Source: a virus. From it: 24,114 nucleotides of DNA. The stretch's first letter is position 1. The number at the start of each line of letters is the position of its first letter. Below the pieces are notes generated by a model that was not told where the DNA came from, ran no database searches, and saw nothing but the letters and a program-made list of their open reading frames with translations. Shown one piece after another: positions 1-20,371 of this stretch. The position numbers were made by a program, and so were the translations under genes. The stretch lies in the IMG/VR virus record IMGVR_UViG_3300008266_000566, positions 1 to 24,114 of that record; one strand, written 5' to 3'.

Positions 1-719
1 TCATATCGTTGACCTACATAGTTTTCATTGAGCTCTAATGTATAGTGAATAACACAATGACCTGCCTTTACAGCATTAGCTCCAATATTAATTAGCATCC
101 ATGATTTACCAATACCTGCAGGAGCCATTACTACACCTAATTCGCCTGGAGCTAAACCACCATCCATCAAATCATCAATAACATCCCACCCGGTTGTTAT
201 AGTGTGTCGGGATGCTTCTGCATAACGAGCCGATATATTAGATTTATATTCTAATCCAATATTGGTATCAGCGCCAGCTTTCATTGCAGTATCAATCTTG
301 CTTTTAATTTCATCATAATTGCCTCGTTGAAGCAAATTCACTGAATCCATTATAGCTCGTTTAATTTCCTGATTCTTGCAAAAATTAAGTATTTCATCTT
401 TAACAAACGTCAGGTCATCAGATTCCATGAAACGAAAGACGTCTTTGAGCTGTTCTAATATTGCAGCTTTTAAAACGCCTTCACTACCTTCAGTACCTAA
501 CTCTGTTAGTTTAACTTTTAATACATCTTTAGTAGGTGGTGTTTTGTATTGCTGAAAATGATCCAATACTATTTCCAATAACCAGTTATTTGCATCAGAC
601 TCAAAATATTCTGGCCGTATAATATCTGCTATTTGTTGTAAAAATATTCGATCCGTAAACATGGCAGCGAGTACTTTTACTTGGAACCCCCAGCCATATT
701 CGCTTAATTTATCTGTCAT
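1..719 (-). CDS. Replicative DNA helicase, DnaB/T4 gp41-like (partial, 3' end beyond window)
   Basis: The reverse strand is open from an ATG at 717-719 to the left edge, giving 239 full codons. Residues 1-130 are a helical N-terminal region of DnaB/gp41 style (starting MTDKLSEYGWGFQVKVLAAM). A RecA-like motor follows: Walker A reads APAGIGKS around residues 199-206 and a candidate catalytic glutamate lies in the YTLE segment at about 229. DnaB-family helicases form hexamers that unwind DNA ahead of the replication fork. The remaining motor motifs (Walker B, arginine finger) would lie outside the window. It is the last visible gene of the replication block and starts 36 bases after the exonuclease stop. 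The family call is strong; whether it is closer to gp41 or to bacterial DnaB cannot be decided here. Confidence 0.85.
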   Translation of the reverse strand, partial: MTDKLSEYGWGFQVKVLAAMFTDRIFLQQIADIIRPEYFESDANNWLLEIVLDHFQQYKTPPTKDVLKVKLTELGTEGSEGVLKAAILEQLKDVFRFMESDDLTFVKDEILNFCKNQEIKRAIMDSVNLLQRGNYDEIKSKIDTAMKAGADTNIGLEYKSNISARYAEASRHTITTGWDVIDDLMDGGLAPGELGVVMAPAGIGKSWMLINIGANAVKAGHCVIHYTLELNENYVGQRY

Positions 720-755: not shown

Positions 756-1814
756 TTATTTTTTATGAGTTTGCATTGCAAAAGCATTTAAAGATAACCA
801 TGTATTATTTAACCAATCCGGAAGATTTTTCATAGTAGTCCACATTTTGTCTTCCATGAACAATCTTTGAAACTCCATTTTATTCATGGTGGATATCGGC
901 TGTTGCATAATGCCTCGTATAACTGATGCACTTTGAGCCGGTATATCTAACAATTTAATGTTCATTAATCTGTAATTCTTTTCAATTGTAGATTCATTAG
1001 ATAACATTTTTTCATATGTCCTAGATTCATTCAATTTGTTTTTACATTTTTCAAATAAATCATCCAATGTGAATTCGACAGGATTTGCTAGCTCTGGCAA
1101 CGATTTAATAATTGTCTTAGGCCCAATACCAGCTACCCCCGGAATATTATCTGAAGTATCTCCCGTAAACGTTCGATACACTACATAGTTATTAGGATGA
1201 ACTCCAAACTCTTCTAACAATGCAGCTTCGTCATACATTTTCTTTTTGATTGGAGACCAAACCTGCAATGTAGGACTTATGAGTTGATAAAAATCACGAT
1301 CCGTAGAAACAATGGTAATTTTCTTTGCAATATCCTTGTACATATCTGCAATGTATGCAATAGTGTCGTCTGCTTCTATTCCATCAATTGCAATGAATGT
1401 TACTGGTAAATTATCTAAATAAGAAACTAATCTGCTAAACTGATGTCGCATTGCTTCTTGTTCATCTTCGATAGTAGCAAATTGCTGATGATCGTGTCGA
1501 CGCAATCTAGTTTTATTAGCTCGATTACCTTTATAATCGCCATATATTTTTCTGCGTCGAGCAGAGCCTCCTCTACCATCAAACACAATAACACATCTAC
1601 TAGGACGAAAATCTCGTATAGCTTTTCCTATAGAAAATAAAAATCCTGTGATTCCTCCGATATGATCTCCATCTTCATTAGTTGATGGAGTTGCTCCAAA
1701 AGCTCTGATGAAGGTATTTAAGCCATCTAATACCATGATATGATCATTGACATCGGACGGCCCATTTACCTTTTCTTCTTGTAACTTTTTGAATAATTCT
1801 TGATATTTATTCAT
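756..1814 (-). CDS. 5'-3' exonuclease / flap nuclease, T4 RNase H-like
   Basis: The 352-residue protein has the acidic pattern of the PIN-like 5'-3' exonuclease family found in T4 RNase H and the N-terminal domain of DNA polymerase I. Seen: VLDG (Asp30), VFDG (Asp79) followed by the basic stretch ARRRKIYGDYKGNR, GIEADD (148-150), STDRD (Asp172, Asp174), and GDTSDN (218-223) leading into the helix-3-turn-helix GVAGIGPKT (226-234) that contacts DNA. These residues bind two metal ions. Family members remove RNA primers and flaps from lagging-strand fragments. Here the polymerase gene lacks such a domain, so this separate gene would supply it. Its ATG overlaps the TGA of the upstream HNH gene (ATGA, 1811-1814), so its translation may be coupled to the mobile gene. 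Confidence 0.9.
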   Translation of the reverse strand: MNKYQELFKKLQEEKVNGPSDVNDHIMVLDGLNTFIRAFGATPSTNEDGDHIGGITGFLFSIGKAIRDFRPSRCVIVFDGRGGSARRRKIYGDYKGNRANKTRLRRHDHQQFATIEDEQEAMRHQFSRLVSYLDNLPVTFIAIDGIEADDTIAYIADMYKDIAKKITIVSTDRDFYQLISPTLQVWSPIKKKMYDEAALLEEFGVHPNNYVVYRTFTGDTSDNIPGVAGIGPKTIIKSLPELANPVEFTLDDLFEKCKNKLNESRTYEKMLSNESTIEKNYRLMNIKLLDIPAQSASVIRGIMQQPISTMNKMEFQRLFMEDKMWTTMKNLPDWLNNTWLSLNAFAMQTHKK

Positions 1815-2374
1815 ATTTTAATTTTTAATTTACAGTTATCAAAATGCCATCTCGTTATTTGAGAATTACCACCTGATTTACTGCAATGCGGACATGTAAT
1901 GATTTTTCGTTTAAATCCAGGTTTACTTCCTCCAAGTTTTTTTAGTTTTCTAGAACTGCTAATTTTTTGTTTTGTTTCATCAGATATACGACGACCAGTT
2001 AATGATTTGCTAATTTTATCGCGGGTCGACTTAGTTGTAATATGACCTCGTTGTATTTTAGACATATTAGAAGAACGTAATACTTTAAAATATTCATATT
2101 CCTGATTTGAAACTATATAATCTCTTATATGATTTTTATTAACTAAATGAATCATACACCAAACAGCATCTTGAAGTCCTTTACTGGTAGGATATATTTT
2201 AACTAATAATTTATGTACTATAAAATGTTCACGAGCAGTTAATTTAACTAGATTGTCTTTATTATTAGTACCACCCATACACCTCGGAATAACATGATGC
2301 TTTTCATAATAACCTTGCAATGTTCTATTGCGAGCTCTATTAATTATAGCATCATGTATTCGTTGGTAATTCAT
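1811..2374 (-). CDS. HNH homing-endonuclease-like protein with NUMOD3-type repeat and C-terminal zinc knuckle
   Basis: A 187-residue free-standing HNH protein. The nuclease core carries His26-His27, Asn41 and His50/His54 in a GYYEKHHVIPRCMGG...NLVKLTAREHFIVHK context, the arrangement common in phage-borne HNH enzymes. A NUMOD3-like DNA-binding helix repeat follows (roughly 113-145, SKSLTGRRISDETKQKISSS). The C-terminus holds a probable zinc knuckle: Cys161-x2-Cys164 then His177-x3-Cys181. These enzymes cut intron- or gene-free alleles and spread by repair. It sits between uvsX and the exonuclease gene and overlaps the latter by ATGA. About two thirds of its first 62 residues match the second HNH gene at 4414-5028. 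All nuclease residues appear intact. Confidence 0.85.
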   Translation of the reverse strand: MNYQRIHDAIINRARNRTLQGYYEKHHVIPRCMGGTNNKDNLVKLTAREHFIVHKLLVKIYPTSKGLQDAVWCMIHLVNKNHIRDYIVSNQEYEYFKVLRSSNMSKIQRGHITTKSTRDKISKSLTGRRISDETKQKISSSRKLKKLGGSKPGFKRKIITCPHCSKSGGNSQITRWHFDNCKLKIKI

Positions 2375-2380
2375 AACTTG

Positions 2381-2478
2381 TTAGCCTTCTTCGTCTATAA
2401 CTGTTTCATCTACTATTACGTCATCGATGCCACCATCAATACCAGCTTGGTATTTGAAAATGTATGCATCACAGATTC
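2381..2478 (-). pseudogene. uvsX: Out-of-frame remnant of the uvsX acidic C-terminal tail
   Basis: Downstream of the 16-bp duplication, the frame uvsX would use if only one repeat copy were present stays open and ends at a TAA at 2381-2383. It encodes RICDAYIFKYQAGIDGG followed by an Asp/Glu-rich end (...VDETVIDEEG), 32 residues with nine acidic and two basic side chains. In the sequence as given, this stretch lies after the uvsX stop and is not in frame. Its TAA is separated by six bases from the HNH ATG, the spacing expected of an original gene junction. Seen directly; that it is a once-functional tail is inference. Confidence 0.75.
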
Positions 2479-3560
2479 TGTGATATAGTCGATTTGTGAT
2501 ATAGTCGATTTTTTATTTCTGTTTGATTAATTACTTTATCAAAAAAGTTTTTAGATTGAAACTTAATCTCACCGTATGTTTCACCAGTTTCGATATCAAC
2601 ATCATCCAATGTATAATGTGCTCCTGCTTGTTTAACTAAACTATATTTTTTCATAGTTTCAAGCCAACCACCATAGTTATCAATACCTGAATCATAATAG
2701 ATATCGTAATTAATTTTTCGATGCGGAGGTCCCATACGATTCTTCACAACTTGAACTTCTGTCTTGCTACCAACTACTTGATCTACGCCATCAATTTTAG
2801 CTTTGATCATCCCGGTGTTTTTCAAACGAAGTCGTACCGAAGCATGAAATGGAATTGCCTTACCGCCAGATGTAGTCCAGGCATCTCCAAACGAAACACC
2901 TAATTTAGTCCGTAACTGATTGGTCATAATCAAACAAATACGTTCTCGTGCAATCCAATTGGTTACTTTACGCATTGCTTTGGATAAGATGATAGATTTG
3001 CTAGTTGCATATCCATCCTTATCATACTCAGCTGCCATTTCAATTTTAGTGGATGCGCCCATAATAGAATCCACAATAATTGTAACTAAACGATCTTTAT
3101 CTGATTTACGTACTTGTTCTACAATTGTTTCAATGGTTTCAAATATTTCTTCAACTGTTTCTAATGGTACATAAAGCATTGATTTCAAATCAATTCCAAT
3201 TGCTGACATAAATTCGGCACTGGATGCTGCTTCAGTATCAATATAAACTGCTAATCCACCTTTCTTCTGAGTTTCAGCCGCTACATGAGATACAAGCAAT
3301 GATTTACCAGATGCTTCTAATCCGGTAACTTCAGTAATCCGACCTACTGGGAATCCTCCGTTCGGTCGGTTTGAAATTGCCAAATCGAGCATATCGCAAC
3401 CAGATGAAATCCATTCTGTTACATTGCTTGGGGAATCTGCATCTCCTTCTAAAAAGAAAGCTGTCTTAAGAGCTTGTCCTTTAAATTGCTTGTTGATGCT
3501 ATCCGCTAATGTACTTGCTAACGAATCTTCCAGTTCTAGTTTGCTTTTACTCTTTGCCAT
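2469..3560 (-). CDS. uvsX: UvsX/RecA-type recombinase, C-terminus altered by frameshift
   Basis: The 363-residue product is a RecA-fold strand-exchange protein that would form filaments on gp32-coated single-stranded DNA for recombination-dependent replication and repair. Walker A is GLEASGKS (80-87), the catalytic glutamate lies in IDTEA (Glu110), and Walker B is VTIIVDS (159-165). A TNQLR segment (213-217) and a long DNA-binding loop follow. A good ribosome site (AAGGAG, six bases before the ATG) overlaps the gp32 stop, and the two genes are 10 bases apart, so they form an operon. The last eight residues (KSTISQNL) are the product of a 16-bp duplication. Without it the protein would be 387 residues with an acidic tail, close to the roughly 390 of T4 UvsX. 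The core should still be active; tail-dependent regulation may be lost. Confidence 0.92.
   Translation of the reverse strand: MAKSKSKLELEDSLASTLADSINKQFKGQALKTAFFLEGDADSPSNVTEWISSGCDMLDLAISNRPNGGFPVGRITEVTGLEASGKSLLVSHVAAETQKKGGLAVYIDTEAASSAEFMSAIGIDLKSMLYVPLETVEEIFETIETIVEQVRKSDKDRLVTIIVDSIMGASTKIEMAAEYDKDGYATSKSIILSKAMRKVTNWIARERICLIMTNQLRTKLGVSFGDAWTTSGGKAIPFHASVRLRLKNTGMIKAKIDGVDQVVGSKTEVQVVKNRMGPPHRKINYDIYYDSGIDNYGGWLETMKKYSLVKQAGAHYTLDDVDIETGETYGEIKFQSKNFFDKVINQTEIKNRLYHKSTISQNL
2479..2510. repeat. Perfect 16-bp tandem duplication inside the 3' end of uvsX
   Basis: The unit TGTGATATAGTCGATT occurs twice back to back, at 2479-2494 and 2495-2510, with no mismatch. Sixteen is not a multiple of three, so the second copy shifts the uvsX frame after codon 355. 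It looks like replication slippage, a repair scar or an assembly error. Confidence 0.95.
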
Positions 3561-3570
3561 TTATAACTCC

Positions 3571-4338
3571 TTAATTGAAAAGATCATTGAATGCAGATGC
3601 AACATCATCTACTTTGTTAGCTGCCGGGGCTGTCGACTTTGGTGCTGCTGCTGGTGCTTGCTCTTCTGTTTCTTCTACATCTGAATCTGCATTTTCTGGA
3701 TTCATCCATTCAGTTAATGCCGCTTCTAATTCTTCATAAGTTGGCTCAGGAAAGATATCAGTAATTTGTGGCTGATTCATAATCTTCTCGGCAACTGCTT
3801 TATCATCAGTAGCTGGTTGAGTGTTTGGTTTTACTCGAATAGATGTTTTAGGGAATGCTCCGCCTTCTGCTGGTGTGAATTCTACATCGATATCACGACC
3901 GTTCATTAAATCTGTGATATCACCATAATCTGGATCTGAGATAATAGAAAGAAGTTCTGTGTAAATTGTTTTACCAAATCCCCAGAATTTAACTCCTTCA
4001 GACTCTTTGCCTCGAACAATAACAGGAACATATGTTCTCATTTTAGGCTCAATTTTACGGCCCATGATCCATTCATCCTTATCTCCAGTTTTCTTTAGTT
4101 TGTCTGAAAACTCTACGATTGGATCAGCATTGCCAAAAGATACCGGGGAAAGCATTGAACGCTTACCAATGTCATAATGGAAATACAATTCTAAGAATGG
4201 ATTTTCTTTGCGATGTACATACGGTACAATGCGGATACGTGTCTTACCTGCTTCAGGTTTCCACAAATTTTGTTTTTTGTCATCAGCCTTATTCAACTGA
4301 TTAAGTTTTGCTTTTATTGCATCGAGATTCAACGCCAT
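3571..4338 (-). CDS. gp32: Single-stranded DNA-binding protein, gp32-like
   Basis: A 255-residue protein with a short basic N-terminus (MALNLDAIKAKLNQLNKADD), an OB-like core rich in aromatic and basic residues (Trp26, FHYDIGKR, KMRTYVPVIVRG, GVKFWGFGKTIY near 116-126), and an acidic, low-complexity C-terminal arm (about 195-230) with an Ala/Pro linker and a terminal hydrophobic-acidic patch (DDVASAFNDLFN). This layout is that of T4 gp32, which coats replication intermediates and recruits UvsX, helicase and polymerase through its acidic tail. No cysteine occurs anywhere, so the zinc site of T4 gp32 is absent. It is immediately upstream of uvsX. An AT-rich, weakly structured 75-base leader lies before the ATG. 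Confidence 0.85.
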   Translation of the reverse strand: MALNLDAIKAKLNQLNKADDKKQNLWKPEAGKTRIRIVPYVHRKENPFLELYFHYDIGKRSMLSPVSFGNADPIVEFSDKLKKTGDKDEWIMGRKIEPKMRTYVPVIVRGKESEGVKFWGFGKTIYTELLSIISDPDYGDITDLMNGRDIDVEFTPAEGGAFPKTSIRVKPNTQPATDDKAVAEKIMNQPQITDIFPEPTYEELEAALTEWMNPENADSDVEETEEQAPAAAPKSTAPAANKVDDVASAFNDLFN

Positions 4339-4413: not shown

Positions 4414-5028
4414 TTAAAGTTGTTTCTTTTTATTTAATCTAGTTTGTTCTAAACTTTTTCTAATTTTTTCTTTAGTTTCTTCAGAATGCGGTTTACGTTT
4501 TTTGCCTAAGTGTGCTAATCGCATTTTTTCTTTAGTTTCATCTGACACGAATTGTACGCCTTTTTTATCTTTATTCCATACGGAACGACCTTTGAGTGCT
4601 TTAGACATATTTTCGCAATGTTGTTTAGATTTTGGTTTACCTGATAATGCAGTTGATATCTTTTGTTTTGTTTTATTAGAATGCGGTAAATGTTTTCTAG
4701 ATTTTTGTATTTCTCGAATAATATCAATTACGGACAGACGTAATGATTCATATTCTCGAGATGATATTTTATATGTTCTTTGATTTTTTTTAGACTTCCA
4801 ATTAACCATTGCCCAAAAGGCTAATCGTATGCCTTTTACATTTGGATAAATTTTGCAAAGAAGTTTGTGTGCTAAGAAATGTTCTCGAGCTGTTAATTCA
4901 ACTAAATTATCTAATGTATTAGTTCCCCCAATACATTTTGGAACGATGTGATGTCGTTCTTTATAACCGTTTAATATTCTCGTTTTTGCTCGGCTAATTA
5001 ATTGATTGTAAATTCGTTCATAATTCAT
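4414..5028 (-). CDS. HNH homing-endonuclease-like protein with NUMOD3-type repeats
   Basis: A 204-residue paralogue of the HNH protein at 1811-2374. The core has His26-His27, Asn41, His50 and His54 in the context GYKERHHIVPKCIGG...NLVELTAREHFLAHK. Its C-terminal half is a chain of about three NUMOD3-like helical repeats (STALSGKPKSKQ, MSKALKGRSVWN, MRLAHLGKKRKPHSEETKEK), basic segments that would set target specificity. Unlike its paralogue it has no C-terminal zinc knuckle. It sits alone between gp32 and a small unknown gene, with AT-rich flanks and a short direct repeat on both sides. Its ribosome site is AAGGAG upstream of the ATG. Nuclease residues look intact. Its target is unknown; the neighbouring gp32 or uvsX region in a related phage is a reasonable guess. 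Confidence 0.85.
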   Translation of the reverse strand: MNYERIYNQLISRAKTRILNGYKERHHIVPKCIGGTNTLDNLVELTAREHFLAHKLLCKIYPNVKGIRLAFWAMVNWKSKKNQRTYKISSREYESLRLSVIDIIREIQKSRKHLPHSNKTKQKISTALSGKPKSKQHCENMSKALKGRSVWNKDKKGVQFVSDETKEKMRLAHLGKKRKPHSEETKEKIRKSLEQTRLNKKKQL

Positions 5029-5135: not shown

Positions 5136-5408
5136 TTATGCCGGGCGATGAGATAAATCAATATTCAAGTATGTTTTAAAAATATGCTGAATAAATCTTG
5201 GATTAAGTCGACCTTCAAAATCCATGTAATAATTATTTGCTATTGAAAGTGCACTAACTTTATTTGTATCAGGAGCTCCATCATAATATTCTGATTTTAA
5301 AAAATCTGCTAGTTTTTTATTTGCATCTTCATCATTGCCAGCTTCATGTAAATTTTTAGTACCAAAGCGACGCATATTTTCTGCTAGGATATGTTTTAAT
5401 TTAATCAT
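5136..5408 (-). CDS. Small hypothetical protein with a tag-like N-terminus
   Basis: A 90-residue protein not assigned to a family. It starts MIKLKHILAENMRRFGTKNL, an amphipathic basic segment, followed by an acidic linker (NDEDANKK) and a compact region of about 55 residues ending FIQHIFKTYLNIDLSHRPA. There is no membrane segment or cysteine. The N-terminal segment resembles in style the short capsid-targeting leaders of T4 internal head proteins, which would make it a candidate packaged protein; that is inference. It lies between the HNH gene and an unknown 128-residue gene, downstream of the polymerase operon. Confidence 0.6.
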   Translation of the reverse strand: MIKLKHILAENMRRFGTKNLHEAGNDEDANKKLADFLKSEYYDGAPDTNKVSALSIANNYYMDFEGRLNPRFIQHIFKTYLNIDLSHRPA

Positions 5409-5441: not shown

Positions 5442-5828
5442 TTACCAAGAAATCTTTTTAAAGAAAATCAAGTTAATAACACGGTATCCTGCATCATCTG
5501 TAAGTATAAATGAATTGCGATACTTCATCCAATCCAATTGATATGTTTTATCTAAAACACCGTTATTCACGCTCTTTATAACTTCATTCAATGCATTCAC
5601 CGTATATAGTGTATTGGTTTCTTTTTTGCGATGTATGCTTATTGTGTTTTGACCTCGTCGGGAAGTAGACATTGCATTGTATGTGCAATACAAATTATCT
5701 GTTGTCTCTGAGTTGCTAAACACAAAGATTCGATGTTCTGGAATTTCGTAGCTTGTTTGTATGTAATCAGTTATGATGTTTAAATCCGATTTGTGTGCGA
5801 AGGTGCAAAGTAGTTGTGTCTTTACCAT
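5442..5828 (-). CDS. Conserved-looking hypothetical protein, function unknown
   Basis: A 128-residue soluble protein. It alternates hydrophobic strands and polar segments (TQLLCTFAHKSDLNIITDYI, HRIFVFSNSE, NTISIHRKKETNTLYTVNAL, WMKYRNSFILTDDAGYRVI), which suggests a small alpha/beta fold with no obvious catalytic motif. Its ATG lies seven bases inside the end of the putative nuclease gene (overlap 5822-5828), so it is probably translated with the polymerase operon. No family is recognised; its position suggests a replication or nucleotide role, but nothing in the sequence proves this. Confidence 0.65.
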   Translation of the reverse strand: MVKTQLLCTFAHKSDLNIITDYIQTSYEIPEHRIFVFSNSETTDNLYCTYNAMSTSRRGQNTISIHRKKETNTLYTVNALNEVIKSVNNGVLDKTYQLDWMKYRNSFILTDDAGYRVINLIFFKKISW

Positions 5829-7066
5829 TCATTTTCCTCAGTTATTTGTATGTCACTTAAATCAATATTAGTTGTACCAATTGCTTTTTCAATGATCCGG
5901 ATTTTACCTGCATCAATTACTACATATCGAAAATCTCTTGTAACTCGAATTCTATCTTTACGAAACACTATAAATTGTAAATCAGTTCCTAGTATTTCAT
6001 CAACTGCGCCTTGTAAATCAATATCTAATTCATTAGGATTTCTTACGTATTTTAATCTTCGTAATTCAGTATTAATATATGTTATATCTTGGTCTCCGTC
6101 ATCAATCGGTTTTATAACTATAGAACCATCTTTCATTTTTTTAATTGGTTCAATTGACATTTCTATAGGTGTCGCATTGGGCCCTCGCAAAATAGCATTA
6201 GTATAACCTGTTATTTCTGTATTCAATGCATTAGCTTCTCTATAGAATTGCATTAAATATTGTTTATCTTTCATATTTAGATTGCCGCCTAAAATAAAAG
6301 ATCTTCGGTCATCTAAATACGCAATCGTTTCTAACAATGTTTCATTAAAATATTTATGAAAGTTAAATTTTGGATTTTCAAATGTACCTCGAAGCTGATC
6401 GAGTCGTTTTAAAGTAGTTACAATTTCATCCCAAAATTTGAAACGAGTTACAGTTGCTTTAGTTCCTAGTCGTATTGATTTTGCATTACCAGCTCCACCA
6501 GTATAATCTTTTATCTCATATGGCTGACCATTGGATGTCATATCAAAACTTTCTCCGGATCCATTTAATCTAGCACCTTCAATTAATGCAGCAAGGAATA
6601 TCTCACCTTTTCCCAATCCCTTAGGTTCTATTTTAAATAAATCATAAGCAACGCCGGCTCGAAAATTTATACTATTTAATTCCTCTTCTGAAACACTTGT
6701 TTTTGAATATAATAAATTTGCAAATTGTTCCGATTGTTCTGCTGTACAGTTATTTAAAAATGACAATGTCAATGCATCAGCTTCCGTTGGCAATAATCGT
6801 AAAAACTGTGTAAATTGTTCTGTTTTACCAGCTTGATTAATTGCGTTGATTAACATTGTATTTTCAATAGAATCAAACTGAACTGCTTCAGTAATCATCT
6901 TTGTTAATGTACCCTGTGCCCGTTTTACAATAGCCCGGGCTTCGTTAGGAGATATATTTGAAGTTTCTATGAGCACATCATATAACACTTCATAATCTTT
7001 TGATTTAGAAGGATATCCATTTGGGAGTCTAAAACACCACTCTGTTAATATAGAATCTATGTTCAT
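5822..7066 (-). CDS. Putative PD-(D/E)XK-type nuclease domain protein
   Basis: A 414-residue soluble protein of unknown family. Residues 1-140 are helical. Around 150-186 it shows a pattern typical of restriction-fold nucleases: GLGKGE (Glu155), then GSGESFD (Asp175), then a strand ending in Glu184-Ile-Lys186 (QPYEIKDY). Glu, Asp and ExK at this spacing would form a metal site. A helical segment with basic and aromatic residues follows (TRFKFWDEIVTTLKRLDQL). The C-terminal half looks like mixed strands and helices. The ATG overlaps the polymerase stop as ATGA (7063-7066), so the two are translationally coupled. It could act as an accessory replication nuclease or DNA-processing factor. The nuclease reading is inference from motif spacing alone and could be wrong. 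Confidence 0.5.
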   Translation of the reverse strand: MNIDSILTEWCFRLPNGYPSKSKDYEVLYDVLIETSNISPNEARAIVKRAQGTLTKMITEAVQFDSIENTMLINAINQAGKTEQFTQFLRLLPTEADALTLSFLNNCTAEQSEQFANLLYSKTSVSEEELNSINFRAGVAYDLFKIEPKGLGKGEIFLAALIEGARLNGSGESFDMTSNGQPYEIKDYTGGAGNAKSIRLGTKATVTRFKFWDEIVTTLKRLDQLRGTFENPKFNFHKYFNETLLETIAYLDDRRSFILGGNLNMKDKQYLMQFYREANALNTEITGYTNAILRGPNATPIEMSIEPIKKMKDGSIVIKPIDDGDQDITYINTELRRLKYVRNPNELDIDLQGAVDEILGTDLQFIVFRKDRIRVTRDFRYVVIDAGKIRIIEKAIGTTNIDLSDIQITEENEW

Positions 7067-8382
7067 ATCGAAATAGTTTTCATTTTATCATAAATATTGC
7101 CAACTTTACATTTTACCGGGAAATTACCGGATTCCAATATATGTTTGATTTCTGGTAAAACGGTCTGAGCTTCGGTCATCGGAACATCAAACATTACTGA
7201 ATCATACGTGTATAACACCATACGTGTTTGTTTTTGAGTTAATGCGTCTAATACCTGCTGTAACTTTTGCACAGATACTTCGGTTTCTACTGCTTGTAAA
7301 TAATAATTAAATAGTTTGTTTGCTGTCATGTTTTTAACAGCATCCGAACAAATTGGTCTGTTTAGTATTGGCGTCCGGATACACTTCTTTGATTTCCATT
7401 GTGCCCACAATTCATATACAAACTTATTAACTCGTTGAAAGAATTCAATAGATAAAAATTCAGAATCAATGCCTCCATACATCAATCGAAATGTTATTTG
7501 TTTGCTTTCTTCTCGTTGCTCGTCTGTTAATGCATCTCCAAAATAATAACGACCTAAATAATCATGCACTGATGTGTTAGGCATTTCATATCCAATTATA
7601 CGAGCAATCAATCTAACATGATATGAATCAAAATCCATCTCTACCAATGCACCATCTGTAAACCTGCTACAGAAGGCCGACCTAGTACCATCTTCTTTGT
7701 TCATGGCAGCAAAATTAAAACCGCGGGCTGCGTTACTAGGTCGACCGGTGACTGTATGATAGTTGTATTGCGAATACACAAATCCATTGGTTACCAATTC
7801 TGGCATTCTGAATTCATCAGTTACTCGCAATCCTGATTGTTCAATTCTTGAAAATACTGCAGGATATGTTGCATTAAATTTTAAATATGATTCATCTAAT
7901 TTTGCATTAACACACATAGGCCAGGCATAGTGACGTATTTTCTGACACATTGCTAAATGTTGTTGCATTGGTATCAAAGTATTAACATACTGAAAAGCCG
8001 TATGTCGCCTCCAATAAAATGTATGAGCTGCGGTTGGATAATGAGATTCATCATATGCTTCTGCATAAGTATACCACCACAACGTCTTAACATCCCATAC
8101 GGCATCATTTCCTCCGATTTGCAGCCACTGTTTCTTATCATACACAAAGATATCACGCAGTTGCAGAAACCGGGACAAATGTTCTGAAAAGCCGGTTAAC
8201 TGTTCGGTATGTCTCATCGGAACAATTCGTTCTACACCATCTTCAGTATAAATGTATATTGCACATACCCGATTTATGGATACATGCAAAAAATTGTTTG
8301 TTAAAATAGGTATAACTAGAGTGCGTTTATTTTCAATACACTGAAATAGTGTATCAATTTCATCTGCATCATCTAGTATCAT
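7063..8382 (-). CDS. Family A DNA polymerase with degraded exonuclease region
   Basis: The 439-residue protein contains the three family A palm/finger motifs. Motif A is MDFDSYHVRL (Asp250), after a TGRPS segment (212-216). Motif B is R290-x3-K294-x3-F298-x3-Y302-G303 (in REESKQITFRLMYGG). Motif C is YTYDSVMFDV with Asp394 retained but His-Asp-Glu changed to Tyr-Asp-Ser. Both metal-binding aspartates and the Arg/Lys/Tyr triad are present, so synthesis is plausible. The first 160 residues align in position with a 3'-5' exonuclease domain but lack the DxE motif, so proofreading is unlikely. There is no 5' nuclease domain; that activity is encoded at 756-1814. T4 itself uses a family B enzyme. 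The gene follows the tail module by 36 bases and is coupled to the putative nuclease gene. Confidence 0.85.
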   Translation of the reverse strand: MILDDADEIDTLFQCIENKRTLVIPILTNNFLHVSINRVCAIYIYTEDGVERIVPMRHTEQLTGFSEHLSRFLQLRDIFVYDKKQWLQIGGNDAVWDVKTLWWYTYAEAYDESHYPTAAHTFYWRRHTAFQYVNTLIPMQQHLAMCQKIRHYAWPMCVNAKLDESYLKFNATYPAVFSRIEQSGLRVTDEFRMPELVTNGFVYSQYNYHTVTGRPSNAARGFNFAAMNKEDGTRSAFCSRFTDGALVEMDFDSYHVRLIARIIGYEMPNTSVHDYLGRYYFGDALTDEQREESKQITFRLMYGGIDSEFLSIEFFQRVNKFVYELWAQWKSKKCIRTPILNRPICSDAVKNMTANKLFNYYLQAVETEVSVQKLQQVLDALTQKQTRMVLYTYDSVMFDVPMTEAQTVLPEIKHILESGNFPVKCKVGNIYDKMKTISI

Positions 8383-8418
8383 ACATTGAATATAAGAAAA
8401 AATATGCAGAAATCCTAG

Positions 8419-9027
8419 TTATGAATTAATATCTTTAGGAACTACGAAATCTGTATCTGAGTAATATTGAATAGGGTTAGTTAATACTTCAAATATTTCC
8501 GGGAATTCGGTTTCTACAGTTCGCATAGCTTCAACATTTTTAGTAGCAACTCCTTTTGTTAATACGCCATTTTGAAACGTATCTTGCAACGGTCCGGTAA
8601 TAGTCCAATTCAACTGAAACCCCGAATATAAATTTTTATCAATCTGTCCAGATCTCCAACTTGCAAATTGTTCATAATCAATTTCTAATAATTGTCGTTG
8701 ATTATTCTTTCTTAAAAAATATCTAACAATAAATCCAGTAGATCGGTCTGTTTCTGTAATTATAGGTATATATACATTTGGAGTTTTAAAACGAGTTTGA
8801 ACTGTCTTTAATTCTTTATATCGTTTAGTTAATTCTGATTCTTTAACTAAAGGTTGTAACTTTTTAGATTTATTGGGATTCCAAAATGTTTCAGTAAAAA
8901 TCTCACCTGTAATATATGTGTGATATGGTCCAATGTATTCTTTCTGATCGTCAGTCATCCATTCGGAGCCAGTAGTATATAAATTTTTTGTAATTTGGCT
9001 CGGAGTATAATGTAGTCTACGTCTCAT
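8419..9027 (-). CDS. Probable virion (baseplate-associated) protein, family unknown
   Basis: A 202-residue protein beginning MRRRLHYTPSQITKNLYTTG and rich in aromatic residues (GSEWMTDDQKEYIGPYHTYI, FTETFWNPNKSKKLQPL). It lacks signal peptide, membrane segment and catalytic motif. Its ATG overlaps the hub-like gene's stop as ATGA (9024-9027), and it closes the string of coupled tail genes, so a baseplate or hub role is likely from context. The region FIVRYFLRKNNQRQLLEIDY and the C-terminal segment EIFEVLTNPIQYYSDTDFVV look structured. No named family is recognised. Confidence 0.6.
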   Translation of the reverse strand: MRRRLHYTPSQITKNLYTTGSEWMTDDQKEYIGPYHTYITGEIFTETFWNPNKSKKLQPLVKESELTKRYKELKTVQTRFKTPNVYIPIITETDRSTGFIVRYFLRKNNQRQLLEIDYEQFASWRSGQIDKNLYSGFQLNWTITGPLQDTFQNGVLTKGVATKNVEAMRTVETEFPEIFEVLTNPIQYYSDTDFVVPKDINS

Positions 9028-11036
9028 TTTATTCGAGCCCTTGCATTACATTTAATTTTAGTAGTCCATTCGCCATCATTTGATACTGAATGATCAACAC
9101 CAATAATGGTAAAAACAAAGGCTTCACGATACCGCCTAGGTAATCCGGCTACTGCTAAAACATCTCCATATTTAAACCCATTAATTCCATCTAATGTAAA
9201 TTCTAATTCCATTGGAAACACAGATTTATTTCTATTAATAGATTGTTTAATATCCGGAGTAAAATATATCATATACCGTTGTAATACATTTTGCAATTTT
9301 TCAATGTTATTTGTATCATTAGGTCGCAATCCAAACGTATTTATAGTTTCAGCCAAATTTATAATTACATCTTCATACCTAGCATTCCAGTCTGCTGCTA
9401 ATTTTTCTTTAGTTTTCGTATCTGCATATAAGTATGGATTATAAATTGCTTGTTTCTGTACGGATGCATCACCAGAACTTACTGCAAATACCATACTAGT
9501 AACTGATTCAGGTACTTGACTCGTTAATGATAATTCTCGAATAACAGACGTACCTGTTTTTGATGCAAACGCCGGGAGTGTAAATTCGGTGACGCTTATA
9601 TCTCCATTAACAAAATTAGCATCATAATATAATAATGCGTCTGGTATTAACGGATCTTGTACTAAAACTAAATTTATAGCTCCACCAGTATTATAGTGTA
9701 TTACTTCACTTAGTTTATTTAAAAAGTTTTTTACAGTTGGATTAACTATTCCGTTTTCAGGTGTTTTTTGAATTGCTGATAATATACGTTCAATTGTTTT
9801 TAAATTTATATAAATTCTTGAAGGGAACGCTCGTTCAGATTCAGTTGTACGAACAGCAAATCCTGGTGTTACACGTTCAACTTTAGGGAACATTTTTAGA
9901 TCGGCTTTTCGAATCCCAGACGGCGCCGGAAGTATATTATATGTATATACATCTGTGGGAATGTCAGACGTACCAGACCATAACAATATTTCCATTGGAT
10001 TTGCAGATACTAATCTTTCATAAAAATTACTCTGACACGCCGTGTCTGTGCATATTAACGGAGCACTTATATTTGCTAATAAATTTTCATTTAAAAAATC
10101 TATTAAAAACCCTAATGTCACCATACGTTCGGTAGACGGCGTTGTTTGTGTGTTTTCTAATGTATATGGAGTGCCTACCAGTATAGCTCGATCAGTCAAA
10201 TTAGCAACAGCATATTCAAAATCTACTATATCTGGATTAATCTTTTTTTGTTCTTGTATACGAGCATCCACTACACTACTTATGTCTGTATATATGTTAG
10301 AAACCTCATTTGTAATTTTAGTGCCAGCACCAGATGTTTTAGGTTTATTATTAATAATAGTAGAAACATCCGCATATATATTACTAACACCTGTTGCTTC
10401 AACTGAAACTTCTACACTACCATCGGCACTATATGAATATGTAAATGAAACGATTCTTCCGGTGAAAAATGCTTCATTCATTTTACGTAAATCTTCTAAA
10501 TTAACATTAGGAAAGAAACTCTGAATAGTACCAGTGGTTGGTAATCCTTGATTTTCTAGTTTTTCACCGGTTAATACAACAGACTCATCATGCATAATTT
10601 TTATTCGTATGTATCGGCCTGGCGAACAATATATTTCTTCAATTTCATCTAAGTCTGTAGTAGCATCGGGTACTTGAATAGTTATGTTAGCTTTATTAAT
10701 ATAATTTTTTGATGTATCATTAAAATTAAATGATACTGCAGTAAGTACCGGTGGTATTCGATATGATGGGCGAACTGCATCATTTAAAAAGCCTACAGGG
10801 CCAGTTGGCATATATGAATCTTTTAAAACTGTCTGTCCGCCTAATACACCAAATCCGGGCAATGGTTTAGAATTTACATTAGGTTTTTCTCCGTATGCAA
10901 GTAATTCTACATTTGCTACTTTACCAACCATGTAGTTAATAGCAGCCGTTGTTCGATTTGCAGTTCCAGCAGACCCTCGGGCTATTAATTCTCGCTGCAA
11001 TGCATTGTTAACTTGTGAATAAAACGGAAGACTCAT
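9024..11036 (-). CDS. Putative baseplate hub protein (gpD/gp27-like position)
   Basis: A 670-residue, strand-rich protein. The C-terminus reads LEFTLDGINGFKYGDVLAVAG then AFVFTIIGVDHSVSNDGEW and TKIKCNARARIK. A glycine-containing strand followed by 'V-x-H-x-V...W-T' and a final Arg-rich strand is characteristic of contractile-tail hub proteins. The middle holds strands (YRIPPVLTAVSFNFND; IRIKIMHDESVVLTGEK). Its order after tape measure, U-like and X-like genes matches P2 gene D. The hub connects the tube to the spike and may bind a cell-wall enzyme. No lysozyme or peptidase motif was seen. It overlaps both neighbours by ATGA. The hub role is inferred from order and the C-terminal pattern. Confidence 0.6.
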   Translation of the reverse strand: MSLPFYSQVNNALQRELIARGSAGTANRTTAAINYMVGKVANVELLAYGEKPNVNSKPLPGFGVLGGQTVLKDSYMPTGPVGFLNDAVRPSYRIPPVLTAVSFNFNDTSKNYINKANITIQVPDATTDLDEIEEIYCSPGRYIRIKIMHDESVVLTGEKLENQGLPTTGTIQSFFPNVNLEDLRKMNEAFFTGRIVSFTYSYSADGSVEVSVEATGVSNIYADVSTIINNKPKTSGAGTKITNEVSNIYTDISSVVDARIQEQKKINPDIVDFEYAVANLTDRAILVGTPYTLENTQTTPSTERMVTLGFLIDFLNENLLANISAPLICTDTACQSNFYERLVSANPMEILLWSGTSDIPTDVYTYNILPAPSGIRKADLKMFPKVERVTPGFAVRTTESERAFPSRIYINLKTIERILSAIQKTPENGIVNPTVKNFLNKLSEVIHYNTGGAINLVLVQDPLIPDALLYYDANFVNGDISVTEFTLPAFASKTGTSVIRELSLTSQVPESVTSMVFAVSSGDASVQKQAIYNPYLYADTKTKEKLAADWNARYEDVIINLAETINTFGLRPNDTNNIEKLQNVLQRYMIYFTPDIKQSINRNKSVFPMELEFTLDGINGFKYGDVLAVAGLPRRYREAFVFTIIGVDHSVSNDGEWTTKIKCNARARIK

Positions 11037-11335
11037 CTGGATAAATTTATACTTTCTATTTGGTTTTGCATGTTAGACATATTTGGAATTCGCAATCTAC
11101 TATTAATAGGAACTATTAATGACCCTTTTCCTAATCCATTAGCGGTAGCTATAATATACCACATTGATGAATCACCGTAAAACTTAAATGCTAACAAATC
11201 TAATCGTTCAATATTAGATGTTTGAATATATACATCATTTAACGATGGATTTGGTACTGGTATAATCATGGTGCTTTGTTTTCGCTTACCAGATGCGTCA
11301 TTAAGTATATTAGCATTACTATATCTGTTACTCAT
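11033..11335 (-). CDS. Small LysM-like baseplate protein (gpX/gp53-like)
   Basis: A 100-residue protein whose second half reads like a LysM-type module: ERLDLLAFKFYGDSSMWYII, then ATANGLGKGSLIVPINSRLRIP. The pattern 'D-x-L-A-x-x-x-Y-G-D-x-x-x-W-x-I-x-x-x-N' ending in 'I-x-x-G/P...L-x-I-P' is shared by P2 tail protein X and the LysM part of T4 gp53, small proteins that join the tube or baseplate to the hub. The first 35 residues are polar and probably flexible. The gene overlaps the hub-like gene by ATGA and follows the U-like gene by eight bases, exactly the U-X-D order of P2. The assignment combines motif and position. Confidence 0.7.
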   Translation of the reverse strand: MSNRYSNANILNDASGKRKQSTMIIPVPNPSLNDVYIQTSNIERLDLLAFKFYGDSSMWYIIATANGLGKGSLIVPINSRLRIPNMSNMQNQIESINLSR

Positions 11336-11343
11336 AGCTATCC

Positions 11344-13158
11344 TTAATTATTAGTAATTCCTCCAGCTGCATTGGCAGCCGGTACATTTGCCTCGCCAGC
11401 TATTTTAAATTTACCTTTATCAGAACCTCGCTCTGCTGCATTTTTATCAGCATTTTCATTTATATCATTAGTTCCAAAATCACTTAACCAATTATCGCCA
11501 CCTTCTTTAGGAATTGCATCAGGTCCAAATGTTTTTGCTAACGTATACATTCGACCTCGTAGTTCTGGCAAATAATCTGGTATTATATGCATTCCTAACT
11601 GTACAGCTACTTTATGTGGCACTTGCATCATGGTAGGATCTTCTTCTATATTAATTTCCCATGTTGTTTCTTGATCTTGAAATGTATAGCCTACGCTAGT
11701 TAATACGATTGGCTGCTGAACTAATAAATCTCCCAATGTCATTCGCATCCATGGACCTTTCATTGCCAATGTACTAGTACCATATTTAGGAGCAGTGTAT
11801 GATGCCAATGCATTTAATTTTCTGTATATAGGTTTCATTTCATCACGTGAAGTTGCATAAACAGTAAATGACAAACTTACATCTCTACTATATCCTTGAT
11901 ATGTATAATTTGGGTCAGCACGACCTATCATCTGTACAGTATTCCATTGCGGTGCATGAGTATCTGAAAATGAATCAATTGTAGCACGGAATACTATGAT
12001 ATCATCTTCATCTTCGGCGCCATTATATAAGTTAGGTCCGGTAAAATAAAATTTTATAAAGTCTTTTGTTATATCAGTTTGATTTGCAAAATCAATAGCG
12101 TTATTCCATTTTTGACTACTAAAACTAAATAATTTAGGTTTCCATCTATAAACTTCTTTTAATGATCGTTGTCCAAAATCAACAACATTTATTTTATCTC
12201 CTCTAAATTCAGTTACTAATTCAGTAGGATTAATAGTTGGAACCCATTTTCCTGGTTTTTTATCTGGGCCGGCGGTTTCTGAAGATTTCCATCTGGTTGC
12301 GACTTGTGATCGTTGTGTAAAATCTCGACGTAATGCATTAGCATCTCCATGATTTCCAAATCCATATACAGATTCTAAATTAAATATAGAATACACCCCA
12401 CCCAGCGGTGCAATTGTTGCTGCAGCATATAATCCACTAACAATAGAATTTTTAACATCATTGTTGAATAGATTTCTAACAGTTGCAGCAGTACCATCTA
12501 ATCGAACATTATCGATACTAAAAGAATATCCTTTAAAACTTCGAAAATCTTTGTATTTAGTAGCACTCCAATTTATTAACGTCGCTTTTCTAGTAAACGG
12601 CATCATGGAATATGGTTGTCCTAAATTTTCAAATCGGGTATCGTCTGTTTTATTAGAACTAAATAGGTTGCTTATACCAGGGCCTGTAATTTGATGAGTC
12701 ATTGCAGTGCCTAATCCAGCTGCTGCACCTACTGCTGCATTTCTGGCTACACTTAAAAATATAGACCCGGGAGATACATTACCAATATTATTAACAACAT
12801 CAGCTCTAGTATTATACGTAAATCCAGCTGGGTTTGTAGCAGTATTTACATTTTTTCCTTGTTCAATCGTAGGTGTATTAAATGGACTTGCATATGTTAC
12901 TTGACCTAATCCCAACGGAATTCCAGCTGGTTTAAAAATTCCTTCGGATTCATTATAAGTTTTAAATGTAGCACGTAGCGATGAATTACTATCAGTTAGC
13001 CATATTCTGTATGGCGATGGAATATCTGATGATAGTATTGGATAGTTAACTGTACTTGTAGGAAATACCGTAACACCATATGGTGGATTTTTACTAGAAA
13101 GCGTTGGAGTACTTATAGGAAAAATAGTACTACCATATGGATTTTGATACGTTGACAT
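11344..13158 (-). CDS. Tail/baseplate protein in the gpU position (tube-terminal or baseplate initiator)
   Basis: A 604-residue protein. The N-terminal 130 residues are Pro/Ser/Thr-rich and repetitive (PYGSTIFPISTPTLSS and PPYGVTVFPTSTVNYP are near-repeats). An Ala/Gly-rich helical stretch follows (about 135-155). The best ordered region is the last third: FRATIDSFSDTHAPQWN, MIGRADPNYTYQGYSRDVSL, the ATSRDEMKPIYRKLNALASY helix, then MRMTLGDLLVQQPIVLTSVG and TTWEINIEEDP. A strand-helix-strand layout ending in a 'W-x-I-x-I' strand resembles tube-like beta-sandwich proteins such as P2 gpU. It lies one base after the tape measure stop and eight bases before the X-like gene. The exact role, tube cap or baseplate initiator, is not settled by sequence. 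The C-terminal 60 residues are charged and low in complexity. Confidence 0.6.
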   Translation of the reverse strand: MSTYQNPYGSTIFPISTPTLSSKNPPYGVTVFPTSTVNYPILSSDIPSPYRIWLTDSNSSLRATFKTYNESEGIFKPAGIPLGLGQVTYASPFNTPTIEQGKNVNTATNPAGFTYNTRADVVNNIGNVSPGSIFLSVARNAAVGAAAGLGTAMTHQITGPGISNLFSSNKTDDTRFENLGQPYSMMPFTRKATLINWSATKYKDFRSFKGYSFSIDNVRLDGTAATVRNLFNNDVKNSIVSGLYAAATIAPLGGVYSIFNLESVYGFGNHGDANALRRDFTQRSQVATRWKSSETAGPDKKPGKWVPTINPTELVTEFRGDKINVVDFGQRSLKEVYRWKPKLFSFSSQKWNNAIDFANQTDITKDFIKFYFTGPNLYNGAEDEDDIIVFRATIDSFSDTHAPQWNTVQMIGRADPNYTYQGYSRDVSLSFTVYATSRDEMKPIYRKLNALASYTAPKYGTSTLAMKGPWMRMTLGDLLVQQPIVLTSVGYTFQDQETTWEINIEEDPTMMQVPHKVAVQLGMHIIPDYLPELRGRMYTLAKTFGPDAIPKEGGDNWLSDFGTNDINENADKNAAERGSDKGKFKIAGEANVPAANAAGGITNN

Positions 13159-13159
13159 C

Positions 13160-14848
13160 TTACATTATACTTGTGTTATTTAGATTGGACCGTTCTAATA
13201 TACGCAATGAAGATCTAATTTTTTGACCATCAAATACATTTGTTACTTGAAAACTCATTCCTTTTATCGCATCAGCAACTGCACTAGCAATAGCGTCGCC
13301 ATTCATTCCGGCTTTTGGTGCAGTTGCTTCACGTATACCTGGCATTGCTAGTATATCATCTTTTGGATCTAATGAAAACGACCCAAATGGCCCACTTACA
13401 ACAGTACCAGGGCCAGCTGGTATAAAAACATCTTTTTGTGGTTCTGGCGATGTTATTGTTTCGTATTGTCCTTGATTTAATATATCCCCACTACCAATTT
13501 TACCAGCAACTGTACCAACTAAATTAATACCAGACATCAAACTTCTAATTCCTGCTGCAACTGCGCTAGTTGAAACTGTAGCTGCAATGTCTGCTGCTTC
13601 TTTGGTTAATACCAATGCCCGATCGGCATTTTCTAATATAGTAGTACTGGTTTTTTGTACGTCTGCCCCGGTTTTTCCTTCAAACGCAGAAGTTTCTGCC
13701 TCAGTTGTTACTTTAGCTTGCAATTTTTCCTCAGTAGATCGTTGATCTTCTGCAGCAGCCATTGATTTATATGTTTCATTCAATGATGCTGCGCTAGTAA
13801 CTTCTGCATTTAATAATTTATTAGCATTTGTATGTGCCGTATTTAAAGCAGCTTGTCCTTCGAGTCCTTCAAATATTTGTTCAGCGCTAACACCTAAATA
13901 TTCTGCAGATTTTTCTAAGAAAAAAGGATTTGTTTTTAATTTGCTAGAATATTTAGAAATATAGTCACTAAATAATTCTACTTGTTTATTTGCATCACGT
14001 TGCAGTACTGCTTGTTGCATTGCTACACCAAAATTTTCACCAGCTGACGTAGTTATATCTTCACCGGCTAATGCTTGAAGTTCATACTCGCTAGTAATCA
14101 TTTGATTATAATCCAGGAATCCTTTTGCGCCGGTGGTAATAGTAGACATTTCTACACCTAACATTTTTGCTTTTCCTAATGCTAAAGCTAATTGTTTAGG
14201 CATTGCACCGAATACTACTCGTTCTTCAGCACTTAAATTTGCAAACTCTTTACTAATATCTGTTAATGTACCGGATTCATACCCTAACTTTTTAAATAAT
14301 TCAGCAACATCTGTAACTTGTTCTCGAAATGATTTAGCCATGGCTAAACTACCATTTGCATATGCAGTTTGCGCGCTAGTAAAACTTTCATAAGCGTCTT
14401 CGCCTATTTTCATTTGTTCTAATGCTAACTCATTCTGTTCAACTAAAAATTTTCCGTAGTTTGTTTCATAAAATTTTTTGCCAACTGTAGCAAATAATTT
14501 TTTATTTTCTTCTACATTTTTTTTAGTATTTGCTGAATTAATGTTAAGGGTTTTAGATAAATTTTGTAAAGTTATACCAAAATTAGCAGCGTCTTTTGCA
14601 TTTAAGTTAAATCCAGATTGTAAGCCTGCATTTAACTGTTCTAAAACTGTTAAATTATCTGATACTTTTTTTATTTCATCGCCAATTGTACCAAATACAT
14701 TTAATTTTACAACAGCACCACCTTCGGTTTTATATAACTCAAATAGTTTGCGTAACTGTGCTTCGATTGACGCAAGTTCAGCAGATTGACCTTGTTTAGG
14801 TTGTTGCTTAAGACGTTTAATTAGTTGTATTTGATGTTCGTAGGTCAT
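13160..14848 (-). CDS. Tail tape measure protein
   Basis: A 562-residue, largely alpha-helical, Ala/Lys/Glu-rich protein (for example KLNVFGTIGDEIKKVSDNLT, LEQMKIGEDAYESFTSAQTA, LKAKVTTEAE-like stretches) with a hydrophobic small-residue segment near 430-465 (ADIAATVSTSAVAAGIRSLM and following). It lies directly between the chaperone frames and the baseplate genes, the invariant position of tape measure genes. Tape measure proteins fill the tube and fix tail length at roughly 1.5 angstrom per residue, which here would give about 80-85 nm. No peptidoglycan hydrolase motif was seen. The candidate promoter motif at 14864-14876 lies just upstream of its ATG. Confidence 0.8.
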   Translation of the reverse strand: MTYEHQIQLIKRLKQQPKQGQSAELASIEAQLRKLFELYKTEGGAVVKLNVFGTIGDEIKKVSDNLTVLEQLNAGLQSGFNLNAKDAANFGITLQNLSKTLNINSANTKKNVEENKKLFATVGKKFYETNYGKFLVEQNELALEQMKIGEDAYESFTSAQTAYANGSLAMAKSFREQVTDVAELFKKLGYESGTLTDISKEFANLSAEERVVFGAMPKQLALALGKAKMLGVEMSTITTGAKGFLDYNQMITSEYELQALAGEDITTSAGENFGVAMQQAVLQRDANKQVELFSDYISKYSSKLKTNPFFLEKSAEYLGVSAEQIFEGLEGQAALNTAHTNANKLLNAEVTSAASLNETYKSMAAAEDQRSTEEKLQAKVTTEAETSAFEGKTGADVQKTSTTILENADRALVLTKEAADIAATVSTSAVAAGIRSLMSGINLVGTVAGKIGSGDILNQGQYETITSPEPQKDVFIPAGPGTVVSGPFGSFSLDPKDDILAMPGIREATAPKAGMNGDAIASAVADAIKGMSFQVTNVFDGQKIRSSLRILERSNLNNTSIM

Positions 14849-20367: not shown

Positions 20368-20371
20368 ATGT

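Follow-up and report, generated by a model that had tools for sequence, protein, structure and literature searches.

The gene analyzed here lies on the minus strand at positions 7063..8382 of a 24,114-base stretch of viral DNA (IMG/VR record IMGVR_UViG_3300008266_000566; hereafter, the window). It encodes a 439-residue family A DNA polymerase which, judged by its sequence, is a new, uncultured member of divPolA1, a group named in 2024 from 14 phages (PMC11348598, Virol J). We consider it reasonably probable that divPolA1 is a competent, proofreading-deficient second polymerase devoted to gap-filling or recombination synthesis, probably acting with a 128-residue protein encoded nearby (n128), and that bulk replication falls to a separate enzyme. 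An alignment-based scan of IMG/VR confirmed divPolA1 in at least 594 stretches, and in this environmental material divPolA1 is kept while the main polymerase swaps among three families; divPolA1 would mark a task in replication for which the main enzyme seemingly cannot substitute. An invariant histidine at the position of Glu710 of E. coli Pol I and the constant presence of n128 make that task testable, and two cultured phages carry both proteins, Flavobacterium phage immuto and Microcystis phage Mel-JY01.

A new member of the divPolA1 family

The phage's own sequence consists of the single IMG/VR record, a fragment that ends with the window. An initial annotation, made from the letters alone, had placed a family A polymerase of 439 residues at 7063-8382 without naming a strand, and this was borne out: the gene is an open reading frame of 439 codons with an ATG start on the minus strand, the plus-strand reading being full of stops. 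The protein matches DNA_pol_A (Pfam PF00476) with 36.6 bits, above the curated cut-off of 34.3 (E = 3.3e-9), and the DNA polymerase family phrog_17 (E = 1.5e-11). One scan recovered 162 relatives; the median ratio of nonsynonymous to synonymous substitution rates (dN/dS) is 0.15 over 165 non-independent pairs, none of which includes the window gene, and the window gene compared with its relative L005 gives a dN of 0.17 and a dS of 0.77. Given these relatives and low ratios, the reading frame is not a product of chance, and divPolA1 is under purifying selection.

The 2024 paper describes divPolA1 as a family A enzyme accompanied by a "regular" polymerase (family A, B, or C); its exonuclease is inactivated, its catalytic palm preserved, and its thumb truncated, and the replication genes that follow it are constant (PMC11348598). 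The window polymerase is 31.1% identical over 92% of its length to gp001 of immuto, a member named in that paper (E = 7e-53); the homology is full-length, and the inactivated exonuclease, the preserved palm, and the downstream replication genes are common to both. In a family A tree, 20 divPolA1 rows fall on one side of a branch with 100/100 support and nine ordinary PolAs on the other, and the window gene stands inside divPolA1. The tree includes no more than nine ordinary PolAs and some of its branches are long (T7, phiXF1, Mel-JY01); it speaks to the separation of divPolA1, not to its origin. The earlier suspicion that an existing phage subfamily might be involved was thus right. Bacterial and archaeal genome contigs yielded only eight loci, including L181, which proved not to be divPolA1. 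In the Mel-JY01 record, the 5' nuclease homologue (25393-26433) is annotated as "DNA polymerase I" and the divPolA1 gene (19998-21224) as "hypothetical protein".

Another exonuclease-less family A enzyme found second to a PolB is divPolA2 of the barbaviruses, which by description differs from divPolA1 in having an N-terminal domain of unknown fold and a variable gene neighbourhood (PMC11348598). Beyond the available text of that paper, the present analysis adds the fixed His/Tyr signature, the corrections concerning motif C and Arg290, the counts of co-resident polymerases, and n128: that text does not contain the words "steric" and "histidine", and we found no mention in it of a partner protein. 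Among the papers listed, the name divPolA1 occurs in that article and in its preprint. Literature searches for a phage genome with both a family A and a family B polymerase found none, and those on Far-T4 phages and family A DNA polymerases returned nothing related, as far as titles and the beginnings of abstracts tell. Of the markers used for placement among Far-T4 phages, Gp23, portal, and terminase, none was recognized in the window.

Active site and lost exonuclease

The initial annotation listed Asp250, Arg290, Lys294, Tyr302, and Asp394 as key residues for synthesis; all are present, and they align with D705, R754, K758, Y766, and D882 of E. coli Pol I. Conservation was scored in two overlapping sets, a closer one of 73 rows (the window protein and 72 others, loci with identical proteins being merged) and a wider one of 59 rows. 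D250 (D705), F298 (F762), G303 (G767), Q363 (Q849), D394 (D882), Y393, and H255 are invariant in the wider set (59/59), while K294 (K758) occurs in 58 of its rows alongside one undetermined residue (X), and Y302 (Y766) in 58 alongside one Phe. The equivalent of Arg668 is likewise conserved in divPolA1 alignments. Arg290 was correctly placed, but as a key residue it holds for close relatives only: Arg is found in 60 of the 73 closer rows, and in the wider set Arg accounts for 14 rows, Tyr for 35, and Ile for 7.

Motif C does read Tyr-Asp-Ser (residues 393-395), with Y393 and S395 at the positions of H881 and E883. The emphasis first placed on this alteration was, however, misplaced, because ordinary phage PolAs share Ser or Ala at the Glu883 position and the polymerase of phage vB_Tt72, which naturally carries Ser there, is active (PMC9324360). 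Ser, Ala, or Gln is found at this position in the ordinary PolAs of CRP-3, phiXF1, and Nibbles and in gp199 of immuto, and we therefore dropped motif C as a novelty. The Tt72 enzyme differs from divPolA1 in that it proofreads and retains Glu710 (PMC9324360).

What the annotation overlooked, and what appears from the alignments to be more unusual than the change in motif C, is His255 at the Glu710 position. It is invariant in 73/73 and 59/59 rows, and where family A would have Glu, every divPolA1 row has His, as in a diverged subfamily whose homology is not in doubt. Together with Tyr at the His881 position, which we take to be near the primer end, it is present in 20/20 divPolA1 rows and in 0/9 ordinary PolAs, and the real signature of divPolA1, as read from these alignments, is His for Glu710 plus Tyr for His881. 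That His710 is peculiar to divPolA1 rests on the nine ordinary PolAs and on the statement that Glu at this position is highly conserved in family A polymerases (PMC9324360). Since Glu710 belongs to the steric gate against ribonucleotides (PMC9324360), whether divPolA1 has an altered sugar selection is a fair question. In Tt72, Ala mutants at the E710 and E883 positions keep 35% and 76% of activity, respectively, and mutants of either metal-binding Asp 4% (PMC9324360). With both metal aspartates of divPolA1 intact, and with Tt72 tolerating changes at the E710 and E883 positions, divPolA1 is likely to be active as a polymerase.

The fold of the chain was modeled with AlphaFold2 from the 59-row alignment (pLDDT 92.6). 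Foldseek against the PDB returns Pol I as its top matches (1kfd, E = 6.1e-20), and the best match of VIA-align is 3hpo, the Bst Pol I large fragment, with a Z of 28.6 and a root-mean-square deviation of 3.2 Å over 405 aligned residues. This match covers residues 1-435 of the model (302-876 of the Bst enzyme), and the N-terminal part therefore retains the layout of an exonuclease domain. Such a fold prediction had been proposed for the N-terminal region alone; run here on the whole chain, it gives the exonuclease-domain layout with the active-site residues missing. Residues ~1-135 appear to form a degenerate exonuclease-like domain, and the remainder the polymerase domain. Like Klenow and the Bst large fragment, divPolA1 has the Pol I fold over its whole chain, the metal aspartates, and the equivalents of Lys758, Phe762, and Tyr766. 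The exonuclease domain of Bst Pol I is also dead. Unlike these enzymes, divPolA1 has 439 rather than ~580-605 residues, has His at 710, Tyr at 881, and Ser or Ala at 883, and has its 5' nuclease encoded as a separate gene of a phage operon. On the question of the thumb, it can be said that the chain is shorter than those of Bst and Klenow, and that 405 residues align.

A profile-profile alignment with eight ordinary PolAs (probability 99.4, E = 8.7e-22 overall) pairs the exonuclease residues D355 and E357 with Pro25 and Leu27, with low per-column confidence in that region. It was preferred to direct mapping with MAFFT, which gave implausible N-terminal partners. Among columns 1-184 of the 59 rows, only D4, E51, E60, D97, and E181 are more than 70% acidic, and these form no DxE motif; against a profile of the N-terminal 180 residues alone, no PDB entry scored better than E = 0.19. 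The claim that this region lacks DxE and is degraded for proofreading agrees with these findings, the exonuclease residues being gone though the layout is kept, and from its sequence divPolA1 is predicted to be proofreading-deficient.

Separate polymerases in related phages

Other polymerases were searched for in 36 records (14 + 22), 33 of which are phage records with divPolA1; the other three are RM378, which has no divPolA1, and two bacterial bins, G026, in which divPolA1 locus L175 is found and contigs other than its own match family B, and G027, which holds L181. Another DNA polymerase is encoded in 20 of the 33 and lies 13.6-37.7 kb downstream, as transcription runs: 17 are of family B, one is a fragmented family B enzyme (LR756508), one is of family C (G020), and one is of family A (immuto gp199, full-length and with an exonuclease). 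In the 13 records that lack one, the downstream sequence is no longer than 19.5 kb (no longer than 11.1 kb in 12 of these), and the 16 records that reach 24 kb or more downstream all carry one. The family B enzyme of relative G004 has 835 residues and an exonuclease domain and matches phrog_262, which we take to be the gp43 family. Fifteen of the 19 loci fetched match all four family B motif patterns used, and by this measure the family B enzymes of relatives look intact. Mel-JY01 has annotated genes for a HolB-like ATPase and a clamp loader two and four genes after PolB.

Between a main replicase and a second, specialized polymerase, which the initial annotation left side by side, the 20 of 33 records support the latter; for the window phage itself, a main polymerase of its own would lie beyond the left end of the window. 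A gp43-type polymerase elsewhere in the genome had been named beforehand as evidence against divPolA1 being the replicase, and in relatives such an enzyme is present (17 of family B, or 18 with LR756508). The role of T4 gp43 appears to be held in relatives by a gp43-like family B enzyme, whereas divPolA1 itself belongs to family A.

The phage with the family C enzyme (locus L172; a frame of 1118 residues) supports the swapping of polymerases around a constant divPolA1. LR756508.1 (locus L086) is a giant phage of 484 kb that has divPolA1; its family B pieces are spread over two frames, and a frame of 575 residues matches family C. RM378, considered as a precedent for a split family A polymerase, has no PF00476 match and has a family B match in a frame of 532 residues, and was set aside.

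n128, a candidate partner

The gene for n128 (5442..5828, minus strand) is a candidate partner of divPolA1 by its constant linkage. It is present, on the same strand, in all 68 of the divPolA1 loci (of 146) that have at least 4.5 kb downstream. In the reverse direction, 29/29 loci centred on n128 and reaching 5 kb or more upstream carry divPolA1; 16 of them are on contigs already in the divPolA1 set and 13 are on new contigs, all 13 carrying divPolA1; with at least 1.3 kb upstream, the count is 43/51. The six phage records with n128 are the same six that have a full-length divPolA1. The two genes adjoin directly in 17 of 128 pairs, including those of immuto, whose n128 homologue is gp002, and Mel-JY01.

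n128 has an invariant His-Arg-Lys-Lys stretch (H66-K69) and a confidently predicted fold (pLDDT 93.6). Against Pfam and PHROG it finds no coherent family, only scattered weak names; against the PDB it has no relative by profile, and the best Foldseek match has an E of 0.19. The best VIA match has a Z of 6.1, under the level that the tool regards as meaningful; some of the rows are viral origin-binding domains, a likeness of the predicted fold that we take to be a common arrangement. Its sole good match in BFVD is an uncharacterized phage protein. The idea that n128 is T4 RegA received no support from the Pfam and PHROG searches and was dropped.

Proposed role and alternatives

We propose that divPolA1 is the catalytically competent, non-proofreading second polymerase of large T4-like myophages, and that the bulk replicase is a separate polymerase, mostly a family B enzyme resembling T4 gp43, whose gene would lie 14-23 kb downstream, past the end of the window. 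divPolA1 would perform short synthesis coupled to the gp32-UvsX-5' nuclease-gp41 machinery, a role suggested because a Pol I-like enzyme without proofreading is encoded with a 5' nuclease, a single-strand binding protein, a recombinase, and a helicase. It may fill gaps once the co-encoded 5' nuclease has removed primers or flaps, the job of Pol I being split into separate genes, and/or extend 3' ends that UvsX has brought into duplex DNA, and it probably acts with n128. Because divPolA1 and its operon stay while the other polymerase varies (B, C, or A), the accessory task would be independent of the type of the main enzyme. We infer from gene content, conservation, and relatives that divPolA1 is enzymatically active, that it works in gap filling or recombination, that it physically partners n128, and that this phage has a separate replicase.

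Several points weigh against this proposal. We found no biochemistry or genetics of the family in the literature on divPolA1 available to us. The change at Glu710 could impair catalysis. The window is too short to reach a second polymerase, and one relative, G016, has 19.5 kb downstream in which the family A, B, and C profiles find none. The gp45 clamp (PF02916), which a full T4-type clamp system behind PolB would include, was found in 0/12 records, in a search whose controls say little about sensitivity to phage clamps. Finally, the authors of the 2024 paper note that the neighbourhood of divPolA1 is constant and those of the "regular" polymerases mixed, and call the function of the latter "less obvious" (PMC11348598).

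The chief rival, left open in that paper (PMC11348598), is that divPolA1 is itself the main replicase, the swappable A, B, or C enzyme being accessory and n128 a processivity or fidelity factor that offsets the lost exonuclease. divPolA1 heads a constant replication operon, the "regular" polymerases vary in family and place, and the paper considers divPolA1 to be involved in replication (PMC11348598). Yet the enzyme has no proofreading site, and two cultured relatives have genomes of 160 and 190 kb, whereas in the family B partner the exonuclease domain is present and the motifs are complete. Moreover, the swapping of main replicases is common in phages (PMC11348598), so the variability of the regular enzyme is no argument for its being accessory. 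We therefore regard this explanation as unlikely.

Next in order, and likewise improbable, is that divPolA1 is a translesion polymerase able to copy templates that carry damage or modifications (for instance 7-deazaguanine DNA, which these phages may make). The loss of the exonuclease, the His710 and Tyr881 replacements, and the presence of UvsX and gp32 in the same-strand operon would suit it, as would the queuosine/7-deazaguanine pathway genes in G004 and in immuto, in which DpdA is annotated. However, a constant operon with housekeeping replication genes better suits a role in every cycle than a response to damage.

We give a slimmer chance to the idea of a dedicated two-part enzyme, divPolA1 plus n128, in which both sides of the sugar pocket have been remodelled (His710, Tyr881) for ribonucleotides or RNA primer ends; it would be a phage primer-extending polymerase that hands over to the main enzyme, with n128 as a processivity or template-recruiting subunit. 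A related thought, that divPolA1 replaces a missing primase, was rejected on the example of immuto, which encodes an annotated DnaG primase, so that priming in that phage need not rely on divPolA1. That divPolA1 is no longer a polymerase and serves as a DNA-binding or structural scaffold is very improbable: Glu710, His881, and Glu883 are all replaced and the Arg754 position is variable, but both metal aspartates and the equivalents of Lys758, Phe762, Tyr766, Gln849, and Arg668 are conserved, and the Tt72 mutants show that the E710 and E883 positions tolerate what the aspartates do not (PMC9324360).

Replication operon and neighbouring genes

As the initial annotation had it, gp32, UvsX, and a DnaB/gp41-type helicase accompany the polymerase, and all three were found by profile matches. 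From divPolA1, the genes run, all on the minus strand, in the order n414, n128, n90, a homing-endonuclease-like gene, gp32, UvsX, a homing endonuclease, 5' nuclease, and helicase. The profile-matched genes are those for the gp32-type single-strand DNA binding protein (3571..4338), the UvsX-type recombinase (2469..3560), the 5'-3' exonuclease of the Pol I N-terminal/FEN type (756..1814), and the gp41/DnaB-type replicative helicase (3..719), which is cut by the end of the window. Downstream of divPolA1, in loci with room, gp32 is found in 33/33 close and 17/17 distant cases, UvsX in 27/27 and 11/14, the 5' nuclease in 25/25 and 12/12, and the helicase in 23/23 and 12/12. Upstream of divPolA1 are a gene for a 202-residue protein to which no function was assigned and genes for baseplate, tail tube, and sheath.

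The gene for n414 (414 residues; 5822..7066, minus strand) overlaps the stop of the polymerase gene by 4 bases. Single-sequence searches find it in 74/74 close and 8/40 distant loci, and a profile finds it in 96 of the 110 loci that have a gap between divPolA1 and n128. It is very divergent, most of the 22 others aligned being 18-25% identical to the window copy, and it has no library match. Its invariant columns are G-x-G-E ... D ... K, which by eye look like those of a PD-(D/E)xK nuclease. The small protein n90 (90 residues; 5136..5408, minus strand) is found in some close relatives, and in G004 (locus L217) two tandem frames, 2936-3274 and 3288-3803, match it, so that n90 belongs to a small family of genes in the n128-gp32 interval.

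The two inserted genes, a homing-endonuclease-like one of 204 residues (4414..5028, minus strand) and a homing endonuclease of 187 residues with profile matches to HNH and NUMOD3 (1811..2374, minus strand), look related by eye and are absent from most relatives displayed. Between the helicase and PolB genes of G004, positions 8414-13560 encode a ribonucleotide reductase containing a B12-type insertion domain and, after it, GTP cyclohydrolase, QueD, and QueE, possibly a pathway of 7-deazaguanine DNA modification; genes of this pathway are a feature of Far-T4 clade 1 (PMC4360716). Elsewhere in the window, 19384-20367 and 20372-21385 (minus strand) encode tandem glycine-rich paralogues of the tail type, with 327 and 337 residues, which are alike by eye.

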